Shown: one piece after another, positions 14,059 to 31,229 of the stretch
How positions within the stretch are numbered: position 1 is the stretch's first letter
Layout: each line of letters opens with the position of its first letter
Assembly: GCA_020629695.1 (NCBI GenBank)
Contig: JAHDCV010000014.1
Location: forward strand, 24,098-62,857
Length of the DNA: 38,760 nt
Direction: 5' to 3'
DNA from: Acidimicrobiales bacterium
Lineage (GTDB): Bacteria; Actinomycetota; Acidimicrobiia; Acidimicrobiales; SZUA-35
Notes under the pieces: model-generated
The model's input: only the letters and a program-made list of their open reading frames with translations
What the model was told of the DNA's origin: nothing
Databases searched by the model: none
Program-made: the position numbers and the translations under genes

Positions 14059-17000
14059 TCACTTGATCCGGATGTTGCTCGAATCGACCGTCGGACCGGC
14101 CTGGAGGACCACTGTGCCGCTCACCGTCTCGGTGATCGTCACGGTCAGCTCGTCCTCGTCGATGGCGTCGTTGCGGTCGAAGCTGGCGGAGACCGCCTCG
14201 ACCCTGATGCTCACCTCCACACCGTCGAGCACACCCGTGCCTTCGACGATGCCGCTGGCGCCGTCGACCACCATGAAGGTGAGGTCGTCGGTGCGGACGT
14301 CGATGCCGTCCTTGCCGGGTGTCTTGACCTGGATGTGGCCGTTGAGCCGCTGGTCGTTGCCGACGTAGTTGGGGTTGAACTGCACGTCGATCCGGCCGTG
14401 GCTCGGATGATCGATGCGGGCGTTGCCCGAGACCGACGACCCGTCCGGGTCGAACACGACGACCGAGACGGTCTCGGTGACGGTGACCCCCGAGCCGAGG
14501 AAGATCGTGGCCGTCACGTCGTAGATGCCGGCGAAGCCGTAGGTGTGGCTGCCGCTGGTTGCGTCGACGACGGTGCCGTCGCCCCAGTCGATCTCGACCC
14601 GATCGGCCGAGCCGCCGCTCACCACGACCGATGCCGTCACGTCACCATCGACGGCGAGCACGGTCGGGTCGACCGTGAGCGTCAGCGTCGGTGCCGGTTC
14701 GACCACGTAGGTGAACGTGCGTGTCGTCGTGTTGCCGGCCACGTCGGTCGCCGTCACCGTGAACGAGCCGCTCCCGGCCGTGGAGGTGTCGATCGGCGCG
14801 CCGTCGGCCACCGAACTCGAACACGTCACGGTGCCGGAGCCGGCGTCGCGACAGTCGTAGTCGACCTCGGCGAGTGCGCCGAAGGGAATCGAGATCGGCG
14901 TACCGCTGGCCACGACCGGTCCGGTCCGGTCGATCGGCACCACGAACGTCGACACCGTGCCGTCGGCGGCGGTGACGGAGACGATGTGCACGCCGTCGTC
15001 GACGATGGTCGTGCCCGTGACCGGCACCGGTGTGCCGTCGATGGTCACGGCGGTGGCACCGTCGACCGCGAGGTCGACCGGCCCGGTGTACCAGGCGTCG
15101 GTCTGTGGGCCGGTGAGATCGACGGTCACGCCACCTTCGCCGGGCGCCGGCGGTTCCGGGGCCTGCTCGGCCCGGTGGAGTGTGCCCTTGGAGGACGACA
15201 CCGACACGAGGCCGCTCGGCTCGACGGCCTGCACGAGGTACTCGACCTCGGTCGTGCCGGCGGGGACCGACCCGCCACCACTCCACGGGCTGCCGTTCAC
15301 GAGGTCGACGCTCTGCCAGTCGGTGGAGATGTCGGACCGGTAGAGCACGACGACCCGGGCCGCATCGAGGTTGTCCTCGAGGTCGACGATGAAGCCGACC
15401 GTGCCGTCCACGATCGCCGCCTGGACCTGCCGGATCACCGCAGCGTCCTGGTCGTCGGCGAGCGGATCGGTCGGATCGACGTAGAAGACCTCGTAGTCGA
15501 TGTCGTCGAAGAGGCGCTGGGTCCCGGTCTCGGCGTCGTACTGCCCGACGATGAGGTTCAGGTTCTGCGCTTCGATCGTGCGGCCGCCCGGATCCGGGTT
15601 GGGCCGCTCGTACGACGCCACGGCGGCGAAGGTCGAGGGGAACACGATGGTCGGGTCCTCGATCTCACCCTCCCGGGAGCTGTCGTCGATGATCGGCCGG
15701 GCGTAGGCCATGTCGGCGACGGTCACATCGGTCGAGGTCCAGTCGGTGATGATCGCACCCCGGGCGACCAGGCCGTCGACGGTGACGTCGATCGTGGTCA
15801 TCGGCTGGATCGGCCGGTAGTGGATCTCGAGGGTCTGACCGTCGACGCTCCAGTAGGAGCCGTGCACCGAGGTCTCCGGCGTGACGCTGATGGCGGCGAT
15901 GCCGCTGCCCGACGGCTGACCGGTGAAGGGGTCTTCACCGATCACGAGGTCGGTTTCCGGATCGTCGTCGCCCCCCAGGCCCGGCACCTTGTACATCGGC
16001 AGGCCGTAGGTGGTGAACTGCTGGATGACCTTCTCGTCGTAGACGCCGTACAGACCCGCACGTGCGTAGTAGTTCTGCAGCGACTCGACGACGGCCTGAC
16101 CGAGGGTCAGGTCGCCGTCGAGGGCCTGGGCCATGCCGACGATGAGCTCTTCGGTGAGGCCGATCGTGACCGTCTCGCCGTAGCCGTAGCCGGTGTTGCC
16201 GATGAGCGAACCGCCGGCACCGTTGAACGTCTGGGCCCAGTCGGCCGGCAGGCTCGGGCTGGAACCGATGGCGATGTCGGACACGCTGAGTGCGGCGTGG
16301 CACCCCATGGTGAACAACACGTTGCCGCTGAGGTCGGCCGTCGCTCCCGAGAGGTAGTTCTCGACGTCGGACACCTGGAACAGCGTGCTCTCGCCGTAAC
16401 TCGCCTCACTGCTCAGCTGTTCGGCTGCCGGGAGGGCCCGGGCGTAGTCGTAGTGGGCGTTCGCCGACACGAGTCGCGGCCCACCATCGGTGAGGAACGC
16501 GTTCTCCAGGTCGTCGTCGGACCAGGTCTCGGAGTTGATCTCGGTGGTCGCGAAGCCGTTCCGCTCCAGAGCGTCGGTCGTGGCGGCGGTGCCGTCGGCG
16601 AGGAAGTCGTACCCCGTCACGAGTGCACTCACGCCCGGGTCGAGTTCACCCTCGAAGGTGATGAACGTGTCGATCGCCGACTGGATGTCGCCGGCGTCCT
16701 CGACGAGACGGCCCACCGAGATCTCCGGCAGATACAGCAGCCGGTCGAGCCACGGGATCGGATCGGGATCGCCGTAGGGGGCGTCGGTCAGGATCTTGCT
16801 GGCCACGAAGGCGCCGTAGACGCCGGGGGCCTGGGTCGGCCCGAACTCGGCCGCGAAGGTCGACTCGTTGGCGTAGCCGGTCGCATCGGTCTGGCGATGG
16901 AACGGCAGCACGTCGTCGCCACCGACGATCGTCACGTACCGGAGCGACTCGTTGTCGGTCGCATAATCGACCACGAGCTCCCGGATGTCCTTGGCGATCG

Positions 17001-20000
17001 CATCGGCGGCCGCCCAGTCACACGGGTTGGCATCCCACGCCGCGAAGTTCGTCACCGCATCGGTGAAGAGGATCTCGGCGGCACCGAAGTTGTTCGTGTT
17101 CAGGAACTCGACGAGTGCCTGGGCCGAGGCGAGGGCCTCGGCGGCGGCGGTCTCGCCGTGCACGGCGCCGAAGCGCTGCTGGTCGAACAGGATCAGCGTC
17201 TCGAGCCCCTCGGGCAGCGCATTCGCTCCGGCGGCGGTTCCGCCGGTGAACGAGCGGGGCGGGCAGGCCGGAGCCGGCACGTCCTCACGGAAGCGGACCC
17301 GCAGCACGTAGGGCTCGTCGCTGGTGGCGCCGTTGTAGCCCGAGACCTGGATCCCGTACGTCGTGGCCACGCCGTCCAGGTCGGTGTCGGAGACGACCTC
17401 GTCGCCGATGCCACGGCCGGCTGATGATTCCGCGAGGGCCTGATCCGGATCGATCGGCACGTCACCCAGATCCTCGGGTTCGAGGTCCTGGCCGACGAGC
17501 TGGGCGAAGCCATCGTCCTCGACGACCCGGGTGGTGGGGCCGTCGGCGGTCGAGCCGTCGCCGCCGGCGGGCAGGGCCGTCTCGGGCTTGTACAACACGA
17601 GGTCGCTGTCCTGGCTCTGATGGCTCAGGAAGACCGAGGTCGTGAAACCCTCACCGGGGGAGTCGATCGTGAATCGGTCGATCTCGTCCGGGTCGGACAG
17701 GTAGCCGAGGATCAGCAGGTCGGCCGGGGCGGTCGCCCGGGCGGGCACGGCCTCGACGGTGTGCGTCGCGCTCGGCCCGCTCGTCTCGGCACCCGTGCCG
17801 CCGGTCGCCGTGGCGACGGCGGTGGTCGTGCCGAGGTCGAGGCTCGGGGACACATCGAAGCTCAGCGTCTCGGTGCCGGCGGTCGTGTCGAGGAACCACG
17901 ACAGCGCCTGGGCTCCGCCCGACTCCTCGATCACCGGATCGAGTGCCGGTGCGCCGGCGAACGTCGCCGTGCCGGAGCGGTAGCGGTACCCGGCGGGCAA
18001 CTCGACGGTCGTCGAGACGAGGCCCGTGCCCGTCGTGGTCAGCGCCGCGGCGTAGGTCACCACGGTCGCTCCGGCGACGTGATCCTGGATCCCGATGGCG
18101 CCCAGATCGAGCTCTTCCCAGGCGTAGTCCGAGGCGACCACGAGGGCGAGCAGGATGTCGGCGAGCGTGAGCTGATCGAGGACCTCGTCCGGGAGGTCGG
18201 CGAGGGTGCCCGTGCCGAAGTAGTCGGCGAGGTCGACGAGACCTTCGCCGGTCTCGACCTCGACGGCACTCAGGGGCACGGCCGAGAGCGGCACGGCGCC
18301 CAGTGGAGTCGACGCCAGGTCGCCGCCGTCGGCCTCGAGCAGGACGGCCGCTTCGAACAGCGTCGTGTCGTCGTCGAGCCCCAGATCGGCGCAGGTGGGG
18401 GCGGCGAACAGGTCGCAGCCGAATCCGCCGGCGACGTCACCGACGGCGCCGAGCGGGACCGCACCGAGGGGCGTTCCCTGGAGATCGACGGCGCCGAGTG
18501 GCACGGCGCCGAGCGGGACGGCGCCGAGTGGGACGGCGGAGAGCGGAATGGCACCCAACGGAGCGCCGTCGATCTCGACCGCCGACAGCGGCGTGCTGCC
18601 GAGCGAGACGGCGCCGAGTGGCACGGCCCCGAGTGGCACGGCCGAGAGCGGTACGGCACCCAATGGCACCGCCCCGAGCGGCACGGCCGACAGGGGTACG
18701 GCACCCAATGGCACCGCCCCGAGCGGCACTGCGCCAAGAGGGACGGCCGAGAGTGGCACGGCGCCGAGCGGTGCCGCGGCCACGTCGTAGCCGGCGAGCT
18801 CGAGCCCGATGAGGGTGTCACCCACATCGCTGCAGTTGATGCCCTGCGTGGCGGCGTCGAGGCAGACCTCGTTGGCCACCGCGCTGAGCGGAGCGACTCC
18901 GAGTGCGAGGCCGGCGATCGAGACGGCACCGAGTGGTGAGGCACTCAGGTCGACCGCGCTGAGCGGCACGCCCTGGATCGGATGGTTGGCGGGGAGGCTG
19001 TCGAGCAGCTCCTCCAGCGTGACGGCCTGGGGCAGCTGGCCCTCGAAGTCCGTGCCGACCAGCAGGGCGCTCCAACCGCCGGGGAAGTCGACCGCCGACA
19101 GCGGCACGGCGCTCAGAGGCACCGCACCGAGCGGGACGGCGCCCAACGGGACCGCACCGAGCGGCACGGCGCCGAGGGGCACCGCACCGAGCGGGGATTC
19201 GGCCAGGTCGACGGCGCCGAGCGGCACCGCGCCGAGGGGCACCGCGCCGAGGGGCACCGCACCGAGCGGCGCGGCCTCGGTCGCGGTCTCCTCACCGGAG
19301 GCGAGCAGCGCCTCGATGGGGATGTCGCCGAGCGGAACCTCGGTCACGCCGGGGCCGGTCGTCGGCTGGTCGACGCTCAGGTCGATCGAGACGACGGTGG
19401 CGTCCGAGGGAAGTTGCCCGCACTCGGAGAACTCCGAAGACGCCGCGGGGGAACCACCGCCGGTGAACGTCGACCGGTTGGTCGCCGTGAAGACGGGCCG
19501 GCCGGCAACGGTGGCGAGCGGGATGTCGAAGCTCACCGTCGTCGCGAAGAACGTGGCGTTTCGCGAGCCGAGGTAGACATCGCCTTCCCCGAATCCGCTC
19601 GGGTCACACTCGGCCGACGCGTACAGATCGACCGTGGTGCTCGGGGTCGACGACACCGTGACCGTGATGGATGTCGCGCCACTGGTGACGGAGGTGATCG
19701 TCGGGAACGGCCCGTTGGGACCGTCGTTGTCCCGATCGATGCCGAGTCCGCCGTTGTCGCGGATCGAGTTGCCGACGATGCTCACCGTGGCGTCGCCGAC
19801 GACGGTGATGCCGTTGCCGTCGTTTGTGGCGATCACGTTCGACCCCATCGCGTCCCCGATCGAACCGAGCGCCGCATCGGGGCTGGTCGGAGCGACCACC
19901 ACACCGTCGCCGCCATTGGGTAGCGGGTCACCGCTCGCTGCGACGCCGATGTTGTTGAGGTTCACCTCGAAGTTGCCGAGTTTCACCTGCACGCCGTTGC

Positions 20001-22068
20001 CGCCGTTGCCGCTGATCACGTTCGCGATGATCGACGTACGGTTCGGCGTGACGGACTGATCGGCGAGGTTGATGCCGAGGCCGTTGGGCCGGGCGAGCTC
20101 GCCGGTGCGGTCGGTGCCGATGCGATTGCCGCGGATGAGGCCCTCGACACCCAGGAAGTCGATGCCGCCATTGGTGTTGTTGGAGATCAGGTTGTCGAGG
20201 ATCTGTGTGCCGGTCGAGGTGTCGGCGACGGTGACGCCGATCTGATTCGGCTCGGTCGGATCGATGTCCGCCGTGCGCACACCGAGTCGATTCCGCTCGA
20301 TGAGTGCGTTCGATCCCTGGACGCGGATGGCGGACTGGGGGAACCCGGAGATCGCGAGACCTCGCACCGTGACGTCGTCGGCGATGATGTCGAGGCCGTC
20401 AGGTGTGTCGCTCGAGATCGCGAGCCAACGGAGGCCGACCGTGACACCGGCGGCATCGAAGGGCGCGCCGGGGTTGTCGAACTGGGTGGTCGCATCGATG
20501 ACCACGGGCGACGTGATGGCCGGCAGCGGCGTCGCAACGCCGATGACGTGGGGTCCGCCACGTGGGATGTCGAACTCGATCGTTCCGCCGGCCTGGGCGT
20601 TCATCTCCTCGATCGCCGCACGGAGGGAGCAGCTGCCGGCGGCCGTCGGTCCGCAAAGTCCGTCACCGGGCACGGGGTCGGGGTCGTCGGCGACGCTGTT
20701 GACCACGAGCGTTCCGGAGAACGGCGGGGCGACGTTGTTGACGGTGTCGTAGATCTCGATGGTGCCGGCGTCGGTCTCGGGCCCTCCGAGCACGTCGGGG
20801 TCCGCGGTCGGCGCGCCGACCGCCATGAACTCGAGGTCGGCGATGGCGATCGCCGAGCCGAAGCCGGTCCCGGGATCACCGGTGAACCGCCAGTCGTTCG
20901 TGACGTCATGGCCGATCACGTAGACCTGGTCGATCGATGGGGCGCCGATGGCGACCTCCTGACCGAAGGCCAGATCCGTGAGGTCGATCTCGGCGTCGAC
21001 GTCGCCGCCGGCGAGCACCTGGGCCTCGCCCGGGGCGAACTCGCCCGAGAGGTCGACCTCGTCGAAGTCGAGGTCGGTGAAGAAGCCGCTCGGGAGCGGG
21101 CCGGTGGCCACGTTGAGTCGTGGACTGCCGAATCCGCCCGGGATCAGCGCCACCAGGTCGAGCGAGCGGTCGCCGGTGAAGTCGATCAGCTCGATGATCT
21201 CGCCGAGGTGGTCCTGCTCGGCGGTGTCGTTGATCATCGTGAACTCGGCGTCGGCGAAGCTGTCGAATCGGCCGCCGGCCTGGTCGAAGCCGAAGATCGC
21301 ACCGGCTTCGATGAAGGAGCCGTTGTCCCAATCGGGAGCGCCGACGAGCAGGTCCTGCGGTTCGTTGACGATCCCGACGACTTCGCCAGCGGCGAGATCG
21401 GCGCCGAAGCGCGAGTTGCCAGGCCCGGTCAGGACCGAGATCGGGCCGATGGTCGAGAAGAAGCTGGCGTTGCTGAAGATCTCGACCCGCTCGAATCCGG
21501 CCATTCCGACGGCCAGCTCGTCGGTCGAGGGGATCCCGTCGAAGTCGGCCACGGCCAGTGCCGTCTCGCCGCCGAAACTGATTGTCGTGCCGTAGTCGGG
21601 CTGGATGCCGAACGAGCCGACCCCGGGGTAGGAGAACACCGAGAGACCGAAGTCTCCGTTGGTGATCAGCTCTCCGGTGCCGTCGCCGTTGAAGTCGGCG
21701 ACCTCGAGCAGCGTCGGCCTGTAGCCGGTGATCGTGGTGTCGGGCGCTCGGCCGGGTGCGCCGCCGCCCTCGAGCGCACGGTCGATCAGGAGCGTGTCGT
21801 CGGTGAGCGGCGTCGTCGAGCCGAGCCAGATGTGGATCGACGATGGGCGCTGCGTCGTGATGAGGTCGTCGACGTCGTCACCGTTGACGTCGCGGAGCAG
21901 GACGATCTCACCGAGTTGGGCACCGGGGTCACCGCCGGCGACGGTGCTGTCGCCGGGCGCGGCATTGAGCGGGCCGTCGAAGGCCGCCGCCGGTGCCGTT
22001 GCCATGAGTGCACTCACCATGGCTGCCGCCAGGCACGCAGAAAGGTTCCGATGTCGCCGCTTGATCAC
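14059..22068 (-). CDS. Giant secreted multidomain protein with pentapeptide solenoid and C25/gingipain-like cysteine peptidase domain
   Basis: About 2,669 residues. I start it at GTG 22068 (VIKRRHRNLS), preceded by AGGCGGG, because a signal peptide follows (hydrophobic core 11-29, cleavage near TAPAAA); the open frame upstream is antisense to the cyclase gene. Approximate order: FG-GAP/VCBS-like calcium-type repeats (45-430, e.g. DVNGDDVDDL, DFNGDGTGEL); CSLREA-like start (452-490, GSCSLRAAIEEMNA) and right-handed beta-helix (to about 800); PLGAV/PLSAV pentapeptides (934-1270); a DUF11-like beta-sandwich (1325-1440); a PPC-like domain (1445-1595); a peptidase C25-like caspase fold (1630-2035) with H1872 (SANAHYDY) and C1923 (FTMGCHAAL) as the likely dyad; Ig-like domains; a PKD domain (about 2460-2545, WGDGT); and an unassigned C-terminus. 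No LPXTG or C-terminal anchor is seen, so it is probably released or loosely bound. Substrate and role are unknown. Confidence 0.85.
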   Translation of the reverse strand: MIKRRHRNLSACLAAAMVSALMATAPAAAFDGPLNAAPGDSTVAGGDPGAQLGEIVLLRDVNGDDVDDLITTQRPSSIHIWLGSTTPLTDDTLLIDRALEGGGAPGRAPDTTITGYRPTLLEVADFNGDGTGELITNGDFGLSVFSYPGVGSFGIQPDYGTTISFGGETALAVADFDGIPSTDELAVGMAGFERVEIFSNASFFSTIGPISVLTGPGNSRFGADLAAGEVVGIVNEPQDLLVGAPDWDNGSFIEAGAIFGFDQAGGRFDSFADAEFTMINDTAEQDHLGEIIELIDFTGDRSLDLVALIPGGFGSPRLNVATGPLPSGFFTDLDFDEVDLSGEFAPGEAQVLAGGDVDAEIDLTDLAFGQEVAIGAPSIDQVYVIGHDVTNDWRFTGDPGTGFGSAIAIADLEFMAVGAPTADPDVLGGPETDAGTIEIYDTVNNVAPPFSGTLVVNSVADDPDPVPGDGLCGPTAAGSCSLRAAIEEMNAQAGGTIEFDIPRGGPHVIGVATPLPAITSPVVIDATTQFDNPGAPFDAAGVTVGLRWLAISSDTPDGLDIIADDVTVRGLAISGFPQSAIRVQGSNALIERNRLGVRTADIDPTEPNQIGVTVADTSTGTQILDNLISNNTNGGIDFLGVEGLIRGNRIGTDRTGELARPNGLGINLADQSVTPNRTSIIANVISGNGGNGVQVKLGNFEVNLNNIGVAASGDPLPNGGDGVVVAPTSPDAALGSIGDAMGSNVIATNDGNGITVVGDATVSIVGNSIRDNGGLGIDRDNDGPNGPFPTITSVTSGATSITVTVSSTPSTTVDLYASAECDPSGFGEGDVYLGSRNATFFATTVSFDIPLATVAGRPVFTATNRSTFTGGGSPAASSEFSECGQLPSDATVVSIDLSVDQPTTGPGVTEVPLGDIPIEALLASGEETATEAAPLGAVPLGAVPLGAVPLGAVDLAESPLGAVPLGAVPLGAVPLGAVPLGAVPLSAVPLSAVDFPGGWSALLVGTDFEGQLPQAVTLEELLDSLPANHPIQGVPLSAVDLSASPLGAVSIAGLALGVAPLSAVANEVCLDAATQGINCSDVGDTLIGLELAGYDVAAAPLGAVPLSAVPLGAVPLGAVPLGAVPLSAVPLGAVPLGAVPLSAVPLGAVPLGAVSLGSTPLSAVEIDGAPLGAIPLSAVPLGAVPLGAVPLGAVDLQGTPLGAVPLGAVGDVAGGFGCDLFAAPTCADLGLDDDTTLFEAAVLLEADGGDLASTPLGAVPLSAVPLSAVEVETGEGLVDLADYFGTGTLADLPDEVLDQLTLADILLALVVASDYAWEELDLGAIGIQDHVAGATVVTYAAALTTTGTGLVSTTVELPAGYRYRSGTATFAGAPALDPVIEESGGAQALSWFLDTTAGTETLSFDVSPSLDLGTTTAVATATGGTGAETSGPSATHTVEAVPARATAPADLLILGYLSDPDEIDRFTIDSPGEGFTTSVFLSHQSQDSDLVLYKPETALPAGGDGSTADGPTTRVVEDDGFAQLVGQDLEPEDLGDVPIDPDQALAESSAGRGIGDEVVSDTDLDGVATTYGIQVSGYNGATSDEPYVLRVRFREDVPAPACPPRSFTGGTAAGANALPEGLETLILFDQQRFGAVHGETAAAEALASAQALVEFLNTNNFGAAEILFTDAVTNFAAWDANPCDWAAADAIAKDIRELVVDYATDNESLRYVTIVGGDDVLPFHRQTDATGYANESTFAAEFGPTQAPGVYGAFVASKILTDAPYGDPDPIPWLDRLLYLPEISVGRLVEDAGDIQSAIDTFITFEGELDPGVSALVTGYDFLADGTAATTDALERNGFATTEINSETWSDDDLENAFLTDGGPRLVSANAHYDYARALPAAEQLSSEASYGESTLFQVSDVENYLSGATADLSGNVLFTMGCHAALSVSDIAIGSSPSLPADWAQTFNGAGGSLIGNTGYGYGETVTIGLTEELIVGMAQALDGDLTLGQAVVESLQNYYARAGLYGVYDEKVIQQFTTYGLPMYKVPGLGGDDDPETDLVIGEDPFTGQPSGSGIAAISVTPETSVHGSYWSVDGQTLEIHYRPIQPMTTIDVTVDGLVARGAIITDWTSTDVTVADMAYARPIIDDSSREGEIEDPTIVFPSTFAAVASYERPNPDPGGRTIEAQNLNLIVGQYDAETGTQRLFDDIDYEVFYVDPTDPLADDQDAAVIRQVQAAIVDGTVGFIVDLEDNLDAARVVVLYRSDISTDWQSVDLVNGSPWSGGGSVPAGTTEVEYLVQAVEPSGLVSVSSSKGTLHRAEQAPEPPAPGEGGVTVDLTGPQTDAWYTGPVDLAVDGATAVTIDGTPVPVTGTTIVDDGVHIVSVTAADGTVSTFVVPIDRTGPVVASGTPISIPFGALAEVDYDCRDAGSGTVTCSSSVADGAPIDTSTAGSGSFTVTATDVAGNTTTRTFTYVVEPAPTLTLTVDPTVLAVDGDVTASVVVSGGSADRVEIDWGDGTVVDATSGSHTYGFAGIYDVTATIFLGSGVTVTETVSVVVFDPDGSSVSGNARIDHPSHGRIDVQFNPNYVGNDQRLNGHIQVKTPGKDGIDVRTDDLTFMVVDGASGIVEGTGVLDGVEVSIRVEAVSASFDRNDAIDEDELTVTITETVSGTVVLQAGPTVDSSNIRIK
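18442..18771 (-). repeat. Pentapeptide-coding repeat block 2 (22 units of 15 bp)
   Basis: This block codes exactly 22 five-residue units in register: 19 PLGAV/PLSAV/PLGAI plus the variant units SLGST, EIDGA and DLQGT. The 15-bp units differ in synonymous positions, so the protein pattern is kept while the DNA has partly diverged. It covers residues 1100-1209 of the giant protein. Confidence 0.9.
19090..19269 (-). repeat. Pentapeptide-coding repeat block 1 (12 units of 15 bp)
   Basis: Twelve five-residue units: nine PLGAV, two PLSAV and one DLAES, at residues 934-993 of the giant protein. Register is unbroken. Several adjacent 15-bp units are nearly identical in DNA, pointing to recent duplication. 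Confidence 0.9.
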
Positions 22069-22120
22069 AGTGTCCCGCCTGATCGCTTGTTCAACTGCGA
22101 CGCACGGTAACAGCTTGCGG

Positions 22121-22133
22121 TCACCCAGGGTGA
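22121..22133. promoter_or_regulatory. Palindrome in the divergent region between the giant-protein and cyclase genes
   Basis: TCACCCAGGGTGA is a perfect palindrome with six-base arms around one base, 52 bp from the giant-protein start and 100 bp from the cyclase start. It could be an operator shared by both genes; a cAMP-responsive regulator is conceivable but the sequence is not a CRP consensus. Confidence 0.3.
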
Positions 22134-22233
22134 GGATCCGTACCCTGTGTGCTGGGATCGCGCACCCACCAACGGCGTGATCGTGGCCCCTTTCGGGTCG
22201 TTGCAACCGTCGGTTGACTACGGTCGGCAGCCC

Positions 22234-25200
22234 ATGGCTCCCCGGAATCCACAGTTCTCGCTGTATCTGCCACGCACGGTGCTCGCGTGGCAGGCCGCTG
22301 AGCACGGCGAGCGGGTGCGTCGTGTCGACGGGACGATGGTCTTCGCCGACATCTCGGGGTTCACCCCGATGGTCGAGCGGGCGAGCGCCGAGGGGCGCGA
22401 GGGCGCTGAGCGGGTGTCGGGCGTGCTCAACAGCCTCTTCGAGGAGATCCTCGCCGTCGTCGTCGACGAGGGTGGCGACATCCTCATGTTCGGTGGGGAT
22501 GCGTCGCTCATCTGGTTCGAGGGAACCGACCACGTCGAGCGTGCCGCCCGAGCGTCGCTCGACATGCAGGAAGCCATCGAGGATGTCGGGATCGATGGCG
22601 TCGGCATCTCCGTCGGCCTCGAGACCGGCGAGATCGCGATGGTGCTCGGAGGGGTCGGACATCGGGAGCTGCTCACGTTCGGCCCGGCCGTCGACGGTGC
22701 GCTCGCCGCGGAGAAGGTCGCGGGGACCGGCGAGGTCCGGGTCGGGGTGGAAGCGGCAGCGGTCCTGCCCGCCGACACGCTCGAGCTCGATGCGTCGGGT
22801 GCGCCGGCGCTGCTGGTCGACGTGGCCGATCCGACGGGTGTCGCGCCGGCGATGCTCGTCCCGAACGCGGACCACCTCGATCTCGCCGACTTCATCCCTG
22901 AGGCGCTCCGCGGCGCGTTGCGAGTCGCCGGCAGCTTCGCGGAGCATCGTCCTGCGGCGGTCGGCTTCATCCATCTCGACGCCGGTTCGGTGGCACTCGA
23001 CGATCTCGACGTCGATGAGATCGTGCGGCTCACCGGGGTGATCGAGGCCGAATCGAATCGTCATGATGTCGCCGTACTCGGCAGCGACTGCGAGATCGGC
23101 GGCGTCAAGTTCCTCCTCGCCGCCGGTGCACCGAAGGCGACGTTGCACGACGAGGAACGCATGCTCCGGACGCTGCGGGCCGTGCAGGACGCAGCGATCG
23201 GCAGCACGATCCGGGTGCGCTCGGGGGCCACACGCGGCCACGTGCTCGCCGGCGACTTCGGCGCCTCCGGTCGTCGCTACTACACGATCCTCGGCGATGC
23301 GGTGAACCTGGCCGCTCGGCTCATGTCGAAGGCCGAGCCGGGCCAGCTCATCACGATCGACCCGGTCCTCGAGCGGTCGCCGACCGCCTTCGCCATCGAC
23401 CGGCTACCGCCGGTGACGCTGAAGGGGAAGTCCAAGCCGGTCGCGCCGATCGCGGTCGGTCCCGTGGTCGGAGTCGAGCGAGTCGACTGGGCCCGATTCC
23501 TGCCCCTCGTCGGACGTCAGGCCGAACTGTCGCTTCTGATCGAGCGGCTCGGCGAGCTTCGCGACGGTCGCGGTGGGGTCATCGAGATCGTCGGCGGAAG
23601 CGGTATCGGCAAGAGCCGACTCGTGGGCGAAGTGCTCGATCGGGCGGTCGCGCTCGACAGCTACGTGCTCATCTGCGAACAGTACGAACGCGACACCCCG
23701 TACTTCATCGGCGGGCATCTGCTCCGCGGGATCCTGGCCCTCAAACCCGACTCCGACATCCACGAGGTGGAGGCCCGAGTCGACGAAGTGATCGCGGTCG
23801 AACCGGGGCTCGCTCCGTTCCGCCCGCTTCTCGGCGTCCCGCTCGGTCTGGACCTCGGGACGACGAAGGAGGTCGACGACCTCGGCACCGAGTTCCGCAC
23901 CGAGAAGATGCACGAGACCGTCGCCGCCTTCCTCGCCGCCGCCCATCCGCAGCCGATGCTGGTCGCCGCCGAGGACACCCAGTGGATGGACGAGGCGAGC
24001 CGAGCGCTGCTCGATCACCTCGGACGCCTCGTCGGCGACCGTTCGTGGCTCTTCGTCTCCACGTCGGATCGGCCGCGGGTCGAGGTGTCGGAGCATCACC
24101 GGCTGCTCGAGATCGAGCGGCTCGGTGCCGACGACATGCGCACGATGCTCCGCCGGGCTGCCAGGGAGCACCCGGTCTCGGACGCCACGATCGAATCGAT
24201 CATCGACGTGGCCGACGGCCATCCGTTCTTCGCGGTCGAGCTCGTCCGCCACGGAGAGGTCGGGGGCCTGCCGCAGTCGGTGGAGGCGGTGTTCGCACAG
24301 AGGATCGATCGGCTGGACGGCCGTGACCGACAGTTGCTCCGCTACGTCTCCGTGCTCGGCAACTCCTTCGCCTTCGACCTGCTCGGCGAAGCGCTGCCCC
24401 AGATCGCACCCTCGTCGGAGGACACCGACACCTGGGAACGACTCGACGCGTTCCTCGACGTGACCGTGTTCGGCAACGTCCAGTTCCGCCAGGACCTCGT
24501 CCGGCAGGTCGCGTACGAAGGGTTGACCGTCGAGCGACGCAAGGAGATCCACGGCATCGTCGGCGACGCGCTTCGTCGGCGGTCCCGCCGGCGGGCCCGA
24601 CGCCAGGCCCCGCTCCTGTCGACACACTTCCATCTCGCCGACCGTTGGGAGGAGTCCTGGGAGTACTCGCGCATCGCCGCCGAAGCGGCCGACGCGGCCA
24701 ACGCCGTCATCGAAGCACTCGGTCTGTACGAGCGGGCGGTCGAGGCGGGTCGTCGGATCGACGCCGCTCCGATCGAGATCGCCGCCGTCGCGGAAGCGGC
24801 GGCCCAGGTCTCCATTCGTATGGGTGCACTCGATCGTGGCGACACCATGCTCGGAGTCGCGCTCGACCTCGGTGAACCCGGCGGGGTCGATCAAGCTCGT
24901 CGCCATCGGATCGGTGCCACGATCCGACGTGAGCGCGGGATGCTGGCCGAGGCGAGCGAGAGCCTCGCAGCCGGCCTCGCCGTCCTCGAGGGCGACGAGG
25001 ACCCGGCCGCTCGCATCGAGTGGGTCGAGTGTCTCGTGGGGCGAGCGGGCGTGCTCCATCGACAGGGCGATCACGAAGCGTCGCTCGCCGCGGCGCTGGA
25101 GGCGATCGACGCGGCGGAGAAGACCGGCCACAAGCCGGGTCTCGGTGCGGCGTCATCGATCGCGTTGCTCGACCACGTGCATGTCGGACGGGTCTCGGAG

Positions 25201-25951: not shown

Positions 25952-26503
25952 TCACCGGGTGTCGAACAGTGCCCGCTCCAGGTCGTCGATGGACGGTCGA
26001 TCGTCGGGGCCATCGCCGGCGTAGCGCCACAGGACCCGTGCGGTGTGGTCGACGATGACGTCGCCGCCCAACTGGAGCGTGTCCTCGTCGGTGCGTCGGA
26101 GTCGTGCGCCCGTTCGAAGGAGCTGCAGGTAGCGACGGGCCGCCCGCCAGCCCCACACCCGGCGGACGGATCCTCGGCCGAATCCGAGGGCCCGATAGAG
26201 GGTGCGCTCGGGGTCGGCCACGAAACGGAACGGCACCCCGAGATGTCGACGGTGGGCCTCGAGCCGCGACGGGTCGTCGTTGAACGTCACGACGACCACC
26301 GCGAGGTCACCTCCGGCGGCCGAGGCCAACCGATCGATGTGGTCCGCCACGTCGACGACGTGGGCCTGGCAGGGGAGTCACGCCAGATGTCGGTGGAAGA
26401 TCAGCAGTGAGCGTCCACCACCGCCGGTCGATGCCGGCCACAGCTCCCCGACGTGGTCCGGAAGACGCACATCGGGGAGCGGATCGGGGAGAGATGCGGG
26501 CAT
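25952..26503 (-). CDS. Peroxiredoxin-like (AhpC/TSA, PRXL2/SelL-related) selenoprotein with UxxC active site
   Basis: Read from ATG 26503 with the TGA at 26380-26378 as selenocysteine, this gives 183 residues. The site reads FHRHLA-U-LPCQAHV, with U42 and C45 exactly where thioredoxin-like AhpC-TSA_2 proteins have CxxC after the FLRH strand-helix. The rest is continuous with the family: VVVVTFNDDPSRLEAH, GVPFRFVADPERTLYRALGF and a C-terminal GGDVIVDHTARVLWRYAG. Without Sec decoding the downstream 132-residue piece would lack its active site and the upstream piece would be 41 residues. A hairpin with G-first loop lies 21 nt after the UGA. The natural stop is TGA at 25954-25952. Probable role: thiol/peroxide redox in the cytosol. 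It is divergent from the MaoC gene. The start lacks a strong Shine-Dalgarno and could lie elsewhere. Confidence 0.85.
26347..26380 (-). promoter_or_regulatory. UGA-Sec codon and candidate bacterial SECIS hairpin, peroxiredoxin-like gene
   Basis: UGA occupies 26380-26378. After 14 nt the minus strand forms CCACGUC-GUC-GACGUGG (26363-26347), a perfect seven-base stem with a three-base loop starting with G. The loop begins 21 nt after the UGA, inside the 16-37 nt range known for bacterial SECIS elements. Confidence 0.75.
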
Positions 26504-29069: not shown

Positions 29070-29582
29070 TCAGGCGGTCAGCTTCTCGACGAGTGCCTCG
29101 ACCGCCTTCTCCGCGATGATCCGCATCTCGTCGTCGGTGCGATCCTGGATGGGATGCTCCACGAAGAGGCGCTCCGGTGCGAAGCCGAGTGCATCGCTCT
29201 GGATCTTCGCGGCGTCGACGAACACCGCCGAAGCCACGAAGACACCTGGCACGCCTCGCCGCTCCAGGTCCGTGATGTCGTGCACACTGCACGACGTGCA
29301 CGAGCCTCAATCCGCCAGGGCCTCGATGACGGCATCACAGGTGGTGGCGATCTCGTGGCGGAGGTCGACCGGTGCGGGTTTGGCGAACGTCGGCTTGCGG
29401 TAGTGGTGGACCGTCGCGCCGCGCTCGGTGAGCAGCTCCTCGACCCGTCGGAGGAACACGTCGCCGCGTGGCTTCGAGATGTCGAGGAGGCCGATCGTCG
29501 CGCCCTCGAGTGACGACAGACGCGGGGCGGTCTCGATGCCGGCGGCCGCCCGGCCGGCGGTCGGGTCCAGTACGACGGTCAT
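29070..29582 (-). CDS. UGSC-family selenoprotein
   Basis: Read from ATG 29582 with TGA 29309-29307 as selenocysteine this is a 170-residue protein. The recoded site is ALAD-U-GSCTSCSVHDI, i.e. U92-G-S-C95 followed by C98, the exact motif that names the UGSC family, which is annotated as a (seleno)protein family. The N-terminal half (TIGLLDISKPRGDVFLRRVE) looks like a Rossmann-type strand-helix unit; the C-terminal half (GVPGVFVASAVFVDAAKIQ, then a helical end) is continuous in the same frame. GGAG lies 8 nt before the ATG. It is 31 bp downstream of the thioredoxin-fold gene, so the two form an operon. A hairpin with G-first loop follows the UGA by 19 nt. Biochemical function is not known to me; a redox role is inferred from the U/C pair. 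Confidence 0.88.
29277..29309 (-). promoter_or_regulatory. UGA-Sec codon and candidate bacterial SECIS hairpin, UGSC gene
   Basis: UGA occupies 29309-29307. After 11 nt the minus strand forms GUCGUGCA-GUG-UGCACGAC (29295-29277), a perfect eight-base stem with a three-base G-first loop. Loop distance is 19 nt, and the 11-nt spacing to the stem equals that of E. coli fdhF as I recall it. Confidence 0.8.
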
Positions 29583-29613: not shown

Positions 29614-31071
29614 TCATGGTGTGACCTCGACGGTCACCGGTGCCGAGCCGACGTCGCCACTCACCCAACCACCGATGAGCGACGAGAACAAGCCGGCGTC
29701 CCCGCCGGCATGGACGAACTGGAGGCCACCGGCCCGGAATTTCGGCAGGTCGGCCTCGGCCATCGCCTCGGGGAGTCCCTCCGCGATGCCGCCGGCACCA
29801 CGGACCAACTCGGCGCCGGAGCGGACGAGCAGCGGTTCGAGTTCGGCCATCACCCGCGCCCGACCCCAGCCGGCCTCGCTGTAGATGCGGCCGTGCTCGG
29901 GGGAGAGCACCACGATGCAGTCGAAGCCGATGATGAGCTTCGGATGGGCGTAGGCGAGCAGGACCGACGCGATGCTCCGAGTCAACGACTCCGGGGTCCG
30001 CGACAGCTGGTCGACGATGGGGATCGGTCCCTGACCGGCGAACAGCGTGACGGCGTCGGTGCCCGCGGGCAGACCGCGGGCGGCGGCGAGCGGTTCGAAC
30101 GGCGAGTCGTGTTCCCGCTCGGCGAACGACCAGCCGAGCTTCGACGGAGCGCCCTGCATGCCCATGTCGACCTCGCCCGGTCGGCCACCTCCGAGATTCC
30201 GGACCACGAGCTGGAGTGCTCGGCCGATCGTGGAGTTGGCACGGTTGCCCTGGCCGAGCACGTTGTGGCCGCTGTTCATCCCGATCCGTTCGACGATCGG
30301 GCCGTTCACGATCACCACGGGACCGGAGAAGTAGGTGGTGGCGAGCAGGCCGTGCATGTTGAACTCGTCGGTGCACGCGGCCTCGACGGCGGCCAGGACG
30401 ACCGGCAGGTACTCCGGCTTGCAGCCGGCCATGACGGCGTTGATGGCGACCTGTTCGACCGTGACCTCGACCAGGTCCGGTGGGATGGTGGCGACGATCT
30501 GGTCGGGTGGCCGCGTCGTGCCCTCGAGCATGCGCAACACGCGTGCCTCCGTCGGCGGCACGACGGGCAGGCCGTCCGACCAGCCCCGGTCGAATGCCAT
30601 CTCCATCTCGTCTTCGAGCTCCGCGACCTCGATCCGCCGGGCGCGGAGCATGGACCCGGAGAACCGAACGGTGAGCTCGTCGGTCATCGAGGGGTCGACC
30701 GACAGCGAACCGCAACCCGGACGCCATTCCGGCAGCCCGTCGCCGAGACTGTCGGCACCGGTGAACGCGATCCACTCCTCCCGGTTCCAACCGACGATGC
30801 GGTCGGCCTCCTCGCCGCCGGTTCGTCGGATGAGCGTCGGCACCGTCTCGATGTCGTGGTGCCAACTCACGGCCAGGTCGGCATCGAGGCGCGATCCGAT
30901 GTCGGCGCAGAACGTGGGATCGTCCTGGACCCAGATCGTGAGGTCGTGGGTTCGGGCGAGATCGCCGAGCACCGGCACCACGAGCTCACACGTGGCGCAG
31001 TCGCGCTTGATGATGGCGACGAGGCCATCATCGGGAAGGGCAGGAACCGAGACGGTCGGTCGGGCGCTCAT
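29614..31071 (-). CDS. Thioredoxin-fold protein with large C-terminal domain, operon partner of the UGSC selenoprotein
   Basis: A 485-residue protein starting at MSARPTVSVP. The first roughly 95 residues look like a thioredoxin fold with the redox pair C25-ATC-C28 in IIKRDCATCEL and a later cis-proline candidate in ETVPTLI. The remaining 380 residues form a domain I do not recognise by function; conserved-looking blocks include WSDGLPVVPPTEARV, VAINAVMAGCKPEYLPVV, GPVVIVNGPIVERIGMNSG and GQGNRANSTIGRAL. No signal peptide or membrane segment is seen. The UGSC gene starts 31 bp after its stop, so the CxxC domain could serve as its reductant. An AGGGGGA stretch lies about 12 nt before the ATG; the upstream frame (MRRGGARG) is less likely. 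Confidence 0.8.
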   Translation of the reverse strand: MSARPTVSVPALPDDGLVAIIKRDCATCELVVPVLGDLARTHDLTIWVQDDPTFCADIGSRLDADLAVSWHHDIETVPTLIRRTGGEEADRIVGWNREEWIAFTGADSLGDGLPEWRPGCGSLSVDPSMTDELTVRFSGSMLRARRIEVAELEDEMEMAFDRGWSDGLPVVPPTEARVLRMLEGTTRPPDQIVATIPPDLVEVTVEQVAINAVMAGCKPEYLPVVLAAVEAACTDEFNMHGLLATTYFSGPVVIVNGPIVERIGMNSGHNVLGQGNRANSTIGRALQLVVRNLGGGRPGEVDMGMQGAPSKLGWSFAEREHDSPFEPLAAARGLPAGTDAVTLFAGQGPIPIVDQLSRTPESLTRSIASVLLAYAHPKLIIGFDCIVVLSPEHGRIYSEAGWGRARVMAELEPLLVRSGAELVRGAGGIAEGLPEAMAEADLPKFRAGGLQFVHAGGDAGLFSSLIGGWVSGDVGSAPVTVEVTP

Positions 31072-31229
31072 GGAGGTCAGGTTCCCCCTCGCGCCGCCGC
31101 GACGCAAATGGGCGGTTCCGTCCGGCAGATGAGACCTCGGTCACATGCGCTGGCCCCGCCACCCCGTCCGTTACTAGTGTCCGAAACGATCTCCGTGGGA
31201 CCTCGGAGACCCGGGGGGACGCGTCGCAC

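Follow-up and report, generated by a model that had tools for sequence, protein, structure and literature searches.

The window, i.e., the whole analysed stretch of 38,760 nucleotides, carries on its minus strand an open frame that runs from an ATG at 26503 to 25952 and in which a TGA at 26380-26378 is the sole interruption. The preliminary description had given exactly these coordinates, all of which have been confirmed. The features of the locus, together with those of a second gene nearby, are the following.

25952-26503, minus strand: predicted SelL-related UxxC selenoprotein gene (ATG at 26503, stop TGA at 25954-25952, 183 residues, Sec at position 42)
26378-26380, minus strand: in-frame UGA, putative selenocysteine 42 and first residue of UxxC (from codon conservation in homologues)
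26369-26371, minus strand: TGC, encoding Cys45, presumably the resolving Cys of ULPC (from the translation; invariant across 46 aligned relatives)
26347-26363, minus strand: candidate SECIS apical stem-loop CCACGUC-GUC-GACGUGG (-9.2 kcal/mol; present in sister L013 as well)
26340-26358, minus strand: alternative candidate SECIS register with a 5-nt loop, usually (C/G)GU(G/C)N, 26 nt past the UGA (from covariation in relatives)
25952-26350, minus strand: truncated 132-residue ORF starting at a GTG and lacking the active site (from the mechanical ORF list)
29582-29070, minus strand: second selenoprotein gene, UGSC family (TGA at 29309-29307), 2.5 kb from the SelL-related gene

When the TGA is read through as selenocysteine (Sec), the active-site stretch is translated as FHRHLA-U42-LP-C45-QAHV, and the TGA has indeed been found on the first residue of the CxxC position, leaving U-L-P-C as originally proposed. 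Likewise, the expectation that a gene finder would call nothing but 132 residues from the GTG at 26350 is borne out by the mechanical ORF list, which shows exactly that piece; standard annotation would lose the active site of such proteins wherever the gene occurs. After the TGA, the GC content by codon position (0.79/0.50/0.84) has the pattern of a coding sequence, which is less distinct in the part before it (0.80/0.54/0.68). As the genome is GC-rich, an open frame and a hairpin prove little by themselves, and it is the conservation of the TGA in relatives that raises the observation above chance. By eye, the N-terminus (MPASLPDPLPDV) shows no signal peptide, and therefore the protein is probably cytosolic.

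The family assignment has been obtained from several sources. Among the Pfam models, AhpC-TSA_2 matches the product at 6e-10 (39.9 bits, cut-off 27), with AhpC-TSA and Redoxin matching as well, while the one NCBIfam match is NF040769, SelL-related redox protein, at 121.6-121.7 bits. This places the window protein within the family, though near its edge, since its score barely exceeds the cut-off of 120; the same model matches every one of the 46 aligned relatives. The family is thus already known, and the gene is another member of it. Invariant among the 46 relatives are R38, H39, residue 42 (entered as Cys in this alignment), C45, H48, D97, Y103, D141, Q144-G147, R169, and P170. The AlphaFold2 model (pLDDT 93.9, pTM 0.90) shows a peroxiredoxin-like fold in which U42 directly precedes helix 43-54, the first long helix. 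Its top match in the PDB (Foldseek and VIA-align) is human prostamide/PGF synthase (PRXL2B), with Z 19.1 and an rmsd of 2.3 over 158 residues. When the protein alone was searched against the PDB with Phmmer, the matches were only weak ones to peroxiredoxins along with low-complexity ones to TAL repeats, and these have been discarded.

The structural match to PRXL2B (PDB 9usa/9us9) covers the whole length, and there is a near full-length profile match as well, at an identity of 18-20%. The human enzyme has an active-site pair C44/C47, to which U42/C45 may correspond, with Cys in place of Sec. Selenoprotein L (SelL) carries UxxU, the motif of a diselenide, whereas ULPC is found in the window. 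SelL has been described as a Prx-like protein (PMC2398784), and the window protein resembles it in the Prx-like fold and in a redox motif that begins with Sec. An AhpC/TSA or Redoxin match together with UxxC is furthermore shared with the Prx-like thiol:disulfide oxidoreductase and Redoxin UxxC selenoproteins listed in a recent inventory (PMC13188914) and with Prx-like 1-3 (PMC2398784). The Myxococcales locus L153 has been seen to contain two in-frame TGAs three codons apart, giving U-L-A-U, which is the motif pattern of selenoprotein L.

Given this fold, the product could be a true peroxiredoxin, i.e., a peroxidase in which C45 is peroxidatic and U42 assists or resolves, and not a thioredoxin-style reductase resembling PGF synthase. 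The next structural matches, Bcp/PrxQ and AhpE, score nearly as well as PRXL2B (Z about 17-18.6), and the Pfam AhpC-TSA and Redoxin models fit this reading too. However, the PxxxT/SxxC motif of classical peroxiredoxins is absent, FHRHLAULPC being found instead with Sec at the place of their Thr/Ser, and C45 is the sole cysteine of the 183-residue protein, with no further Cys to serve as a resolving residue. We consider a true peroxidase unlikely on these grounds. Because of the missing motif and the position of Sec, judged by what is established for peroxiredoxins and thioredoxins, the protein has been filed as a thiol/peroxide reductase with a predicted thioredoxin-style UxxC pair and not as a peroxiredoxin.

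The conservation of the UGA has been followed through a large set of relatives. A scan of the genome contigs with the single window protein gave no match, while an alignment-based scan recovered 108 relatives. The profile scan yielded 80 named loci, mainly from Acidimicrobiia, with others from Thermoleophilia, Euzebyaceae, Acidobacteriota, Planctomycetota, Myxococcota, and Chloroflexota. Of the two patterns employed, one omits the Sec position and the other is written with Cys there, and the scan is therefore not tuned toward TGA. Combining the named loci with the genomes of the phylum, where some entries are one gene fetched twice, 164 of 168 loci have TGA at the codon aligned to position 42, and the other four (L131, L145, L185, and L189) have TGC or TGT there. 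Counted as distinct homologues, 120 of 124 carry Sec and 4 carry Cys, across five phyla. In the source family, 32 of 39 genomes possess a homologue, the best match per genome having exactly one TGA, and at the level of the order (298 genomes) TGA has been observed in all 40 matches better than ~1e-30, one of which also contains a TAA and another a second TGA. It is retained in the named strain Ilumatobacter nonamiensis YM16-303 (L139) as well. The check for homologues with Cys or Sec at position 42, suggested at the outset, has thus returned TGA or a Cys codon and nothing else; a conserved TGA replaced only by Cys is the mark of a bacterial selenoprotein. In an unrooted maximum-likelihood tree of the 124 distinct proteins, the four Cys rows fall at three separate places within groups of Sec rows and require three changes, which looks like a pattern of Sec replaced by Cys. 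Between the window gene and its same-genus sister, dN/dS amounts to 0.35 before the TGA and 0.23 after it, and in ten other close pairs it ranges from 0 to 0.35 on both sides where dS is unsaturated. Such low ratios before and after the TGA argue that both flanks are selected as protein.

The source genome (4.17 Mb, 121 contigs, 97% complete) also holds a complete Sec system; a lack of this machinery had been named beforehand as the finding that would count against the selenoprotein. The tRNA-Sec scores 67.2 bits (cut-off 47) and has been confirmed by ARAGORN with the anticodon tca, selA reaches 400 bits (cut-off 268), the adjoining selB 263 bits (cut-off 242), and selD 351 bits (cut-off 125), so that all four components exceed their curated cut-offs. 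The selD gene carries an in-frame UGA of its own in GAGUACK (G000:C48:57425-58348, L051), and a formate dehydrogenase-like gene has one at the canonical UHAP site (G000:C16:259-2127, L190). In L009 the surroundings of the tRNA-Sec contain no Sec genes, selA and selB being located at another place on that contig. Since the genomes are related, the following counts of co-occurrence are not independent. A selA match, in one case partial, has been found in 32 of 32 family genomes carrying the SelL-related gene, while that gene and selA are both missing from the three genomes of genus g7; two of these have been searched for tRNA-Sec, and neither has one over the cut-off. Throughout the order, 32 genomes have a strong SelL-related match, and a selA match is present in 30 of them. 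The two others, G055 and G100 (loci L070 and L077), have a tRNA-Sec over the cut-off; the contig with selA may be missing, the genome may be misbinned, or Sec-tRNA may be made by another route.

These observations bear on two further explanations. The UGA might be read as another residue, e.g., as Trp by a suppressor or under a reassigned code, or it might act as a programmed stop that yields two proteins, as the open frame past the UGA and the internal GTG at 26350 would allow. We judge this very improbable: the gene's own stop is a TGA, the replacement codons in relatives all specify Cys and never Trp, a programmed stop would remove the active-site helix, and the genome combines the complete Sec system with further UGA-containing selenoprotein genes. 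A pseudogene or a sequencing error, with the TGA having arisen by nonsense mutation or misassembly in a common CxxC redox protein, as a single interruption in one draft assembly of 121 contigs might suggest, can be practically dismissed: many independent assemblies, drawn from several phyla, have TGA at the same codon, and the portion after it is under purifying selection.

We therefore regard the gene, with a probability of roughly 0.9, as a genuine UxxC selenoprotein gene of the SelL-related/PRXL2-like branch, with UGA 42 decoded as Sec and U42/C45 as the redox pair. The earlier proposal of an AhpC/TSA (PRXL2/SelL-like) UxxC selenoprotein is hence supported by AhpC-TSA_2, NF040769, the structural match to PRXL2B, the Sec machinery, and a position that is occupied by TGA or Cys only. 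Conservation and machinery are direct observations, from which we infer the insertion of Sec at UGA 42 itself.

Sec insertion would probably be directed by a stem-loop just 3' of the UGA, for which the window offers two candidate registers, the GUC loop and the 26-nt loop. The first is the hairpin noted in the preliminary description, and it is present as described, with seven perfect pairs, a loop GUC with G first, and a distance of 21 nt from the UGA. Taken alone, however, it is no better than chance: the 63-nt region around the UGA folds with z = 0.11 against dinucleotide shuffles and has no excess stability, and the best post-UGA hairpin of the window is equalled by 12 of 40 synonymous-codon shuffles. 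The same-genus sister L013 shares this stem, with the loop GUC again at 21 nt, whereas in the majority of relatives within the order the SECIS-like loop lies some bases further from the UGA. In other lineages, similar loops have been observed at 20 nt (CGUGA) or 25 nt (AGUU). For the second register, the covariation among 28 relatives pairs stem columns 38-44 with 50-56 in 80.4% of the cells, and the score of 0.311 compares with 0.02-0.18 for slid registers and a shuffle mean of 0.186, none of 500 shuffles being as high; in the window itself, four of the six consensus pairs form. For 117 sequences, the best hairpin having a G at loop base 1 or 2 has been compared with synonymous-codon shuffles and exceeds them in stability, the mean z being -0.77 (s.e. 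0.09, an error that is too small because the sequences are related). An Rfam scan of the window gave no match.

According to the proposed mechanism, UGA 42 would be translated as Sec by the genome's own SelA/SelB/SelC/SelD under the direction of the downstream stem-loop. The resulting U42, placed at the N-terminus of the fold's first long helix, would pair with C45 three residues on. Its selenolate may attack a disulfide or a (hydro/endo)peroxide, upon which C45 would resolve the intermediate to give a U42-C45 selenenylsulfide, and recycling could be accomplished by a thioredoxin, a mycoredoxin, or a low-molecular-weight thiol system. Redox partner and substrate class are here predicted from the modelled fold and the motif, and a cytosolic thiol/peroxide reductase forming the U42-C45 selenenylsulfide appears as the most likely function.

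UxxC Prx-like selenoproteins have been described in the GOS survey, where Cys members far outnumbered Sec members in most families of thiol-redox selenoproteins (PMC2398784). Prx-like and Redoxin UxxC rows are included in the table of the 2026 inventory, which covers 119 prokaryotic selenoprotein families; in a comparison by name, NF040769 and SelL are absent from it (PMC13188914). In the literature library searched, no paper on selenoproteins of Acidimicrobiia or Acidimicrobiales was found. The SelL-related family is mostly Sec, the reverse of most thiol-redox families of the GOS survey (PMC2398784), and this lopsided Sec:Cys ratio is its interesting feature, which makes the family suited to testing why Sec is retained. 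We would give even odds to the proposal that Sec is ancestral and almost obligate in this family (about 97% of the 124 distinct proteins, from several phyla, use it) and that the Cys forms are rare later replacements. The protein, which the 2026 inventory does not list under this name, would then be one that contributes to maintaining the Sec system of Acidimicrobiia and of actinobacteria related to them.

Divergent from the SelL-related gene lie genes for a MaoC-type hydratase, an EamA transporter, and an HhH-GPD (MutY-type) glycosylase; MaoC or the glycosylase adjoins the SelL-related gene mostly within the window's own clade. Libraries of plasmid, phage, and defence systems gave no match. 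The UGSC gene has the motif ALAD-U-GSCTSCSVHD and is matched by Pfam UGSC at 3.4e-44 and by the NCBIfam UGSC family (seleno)protein at 153 bits (cut-off 125). A stem-loop follows its UGA, and ordinary callers end the gene at 29307. A U-GSC gene has also been found beside the SelL-related gene in L082, L084, L085, L088, and L089, and L091 has a candidate U-GSC motif there too. With both genes in the window and in several close relatives, a small selenium-dependent neighbourhood is available for study. Just upstream of the UGSC gene and on the same strand, a 497-residue ORF (29614-31107, minus) has a DCATC motif in its N-terminal part; it matches neither NCBIfam nor Pfam and is a possible UGSC partner. 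Elsewhere in the window, a very long ORF (14059-23241, minus, 3060 aa as listed) contains many PLGAVPLSAVPLGAV-like repeats in its middle part.
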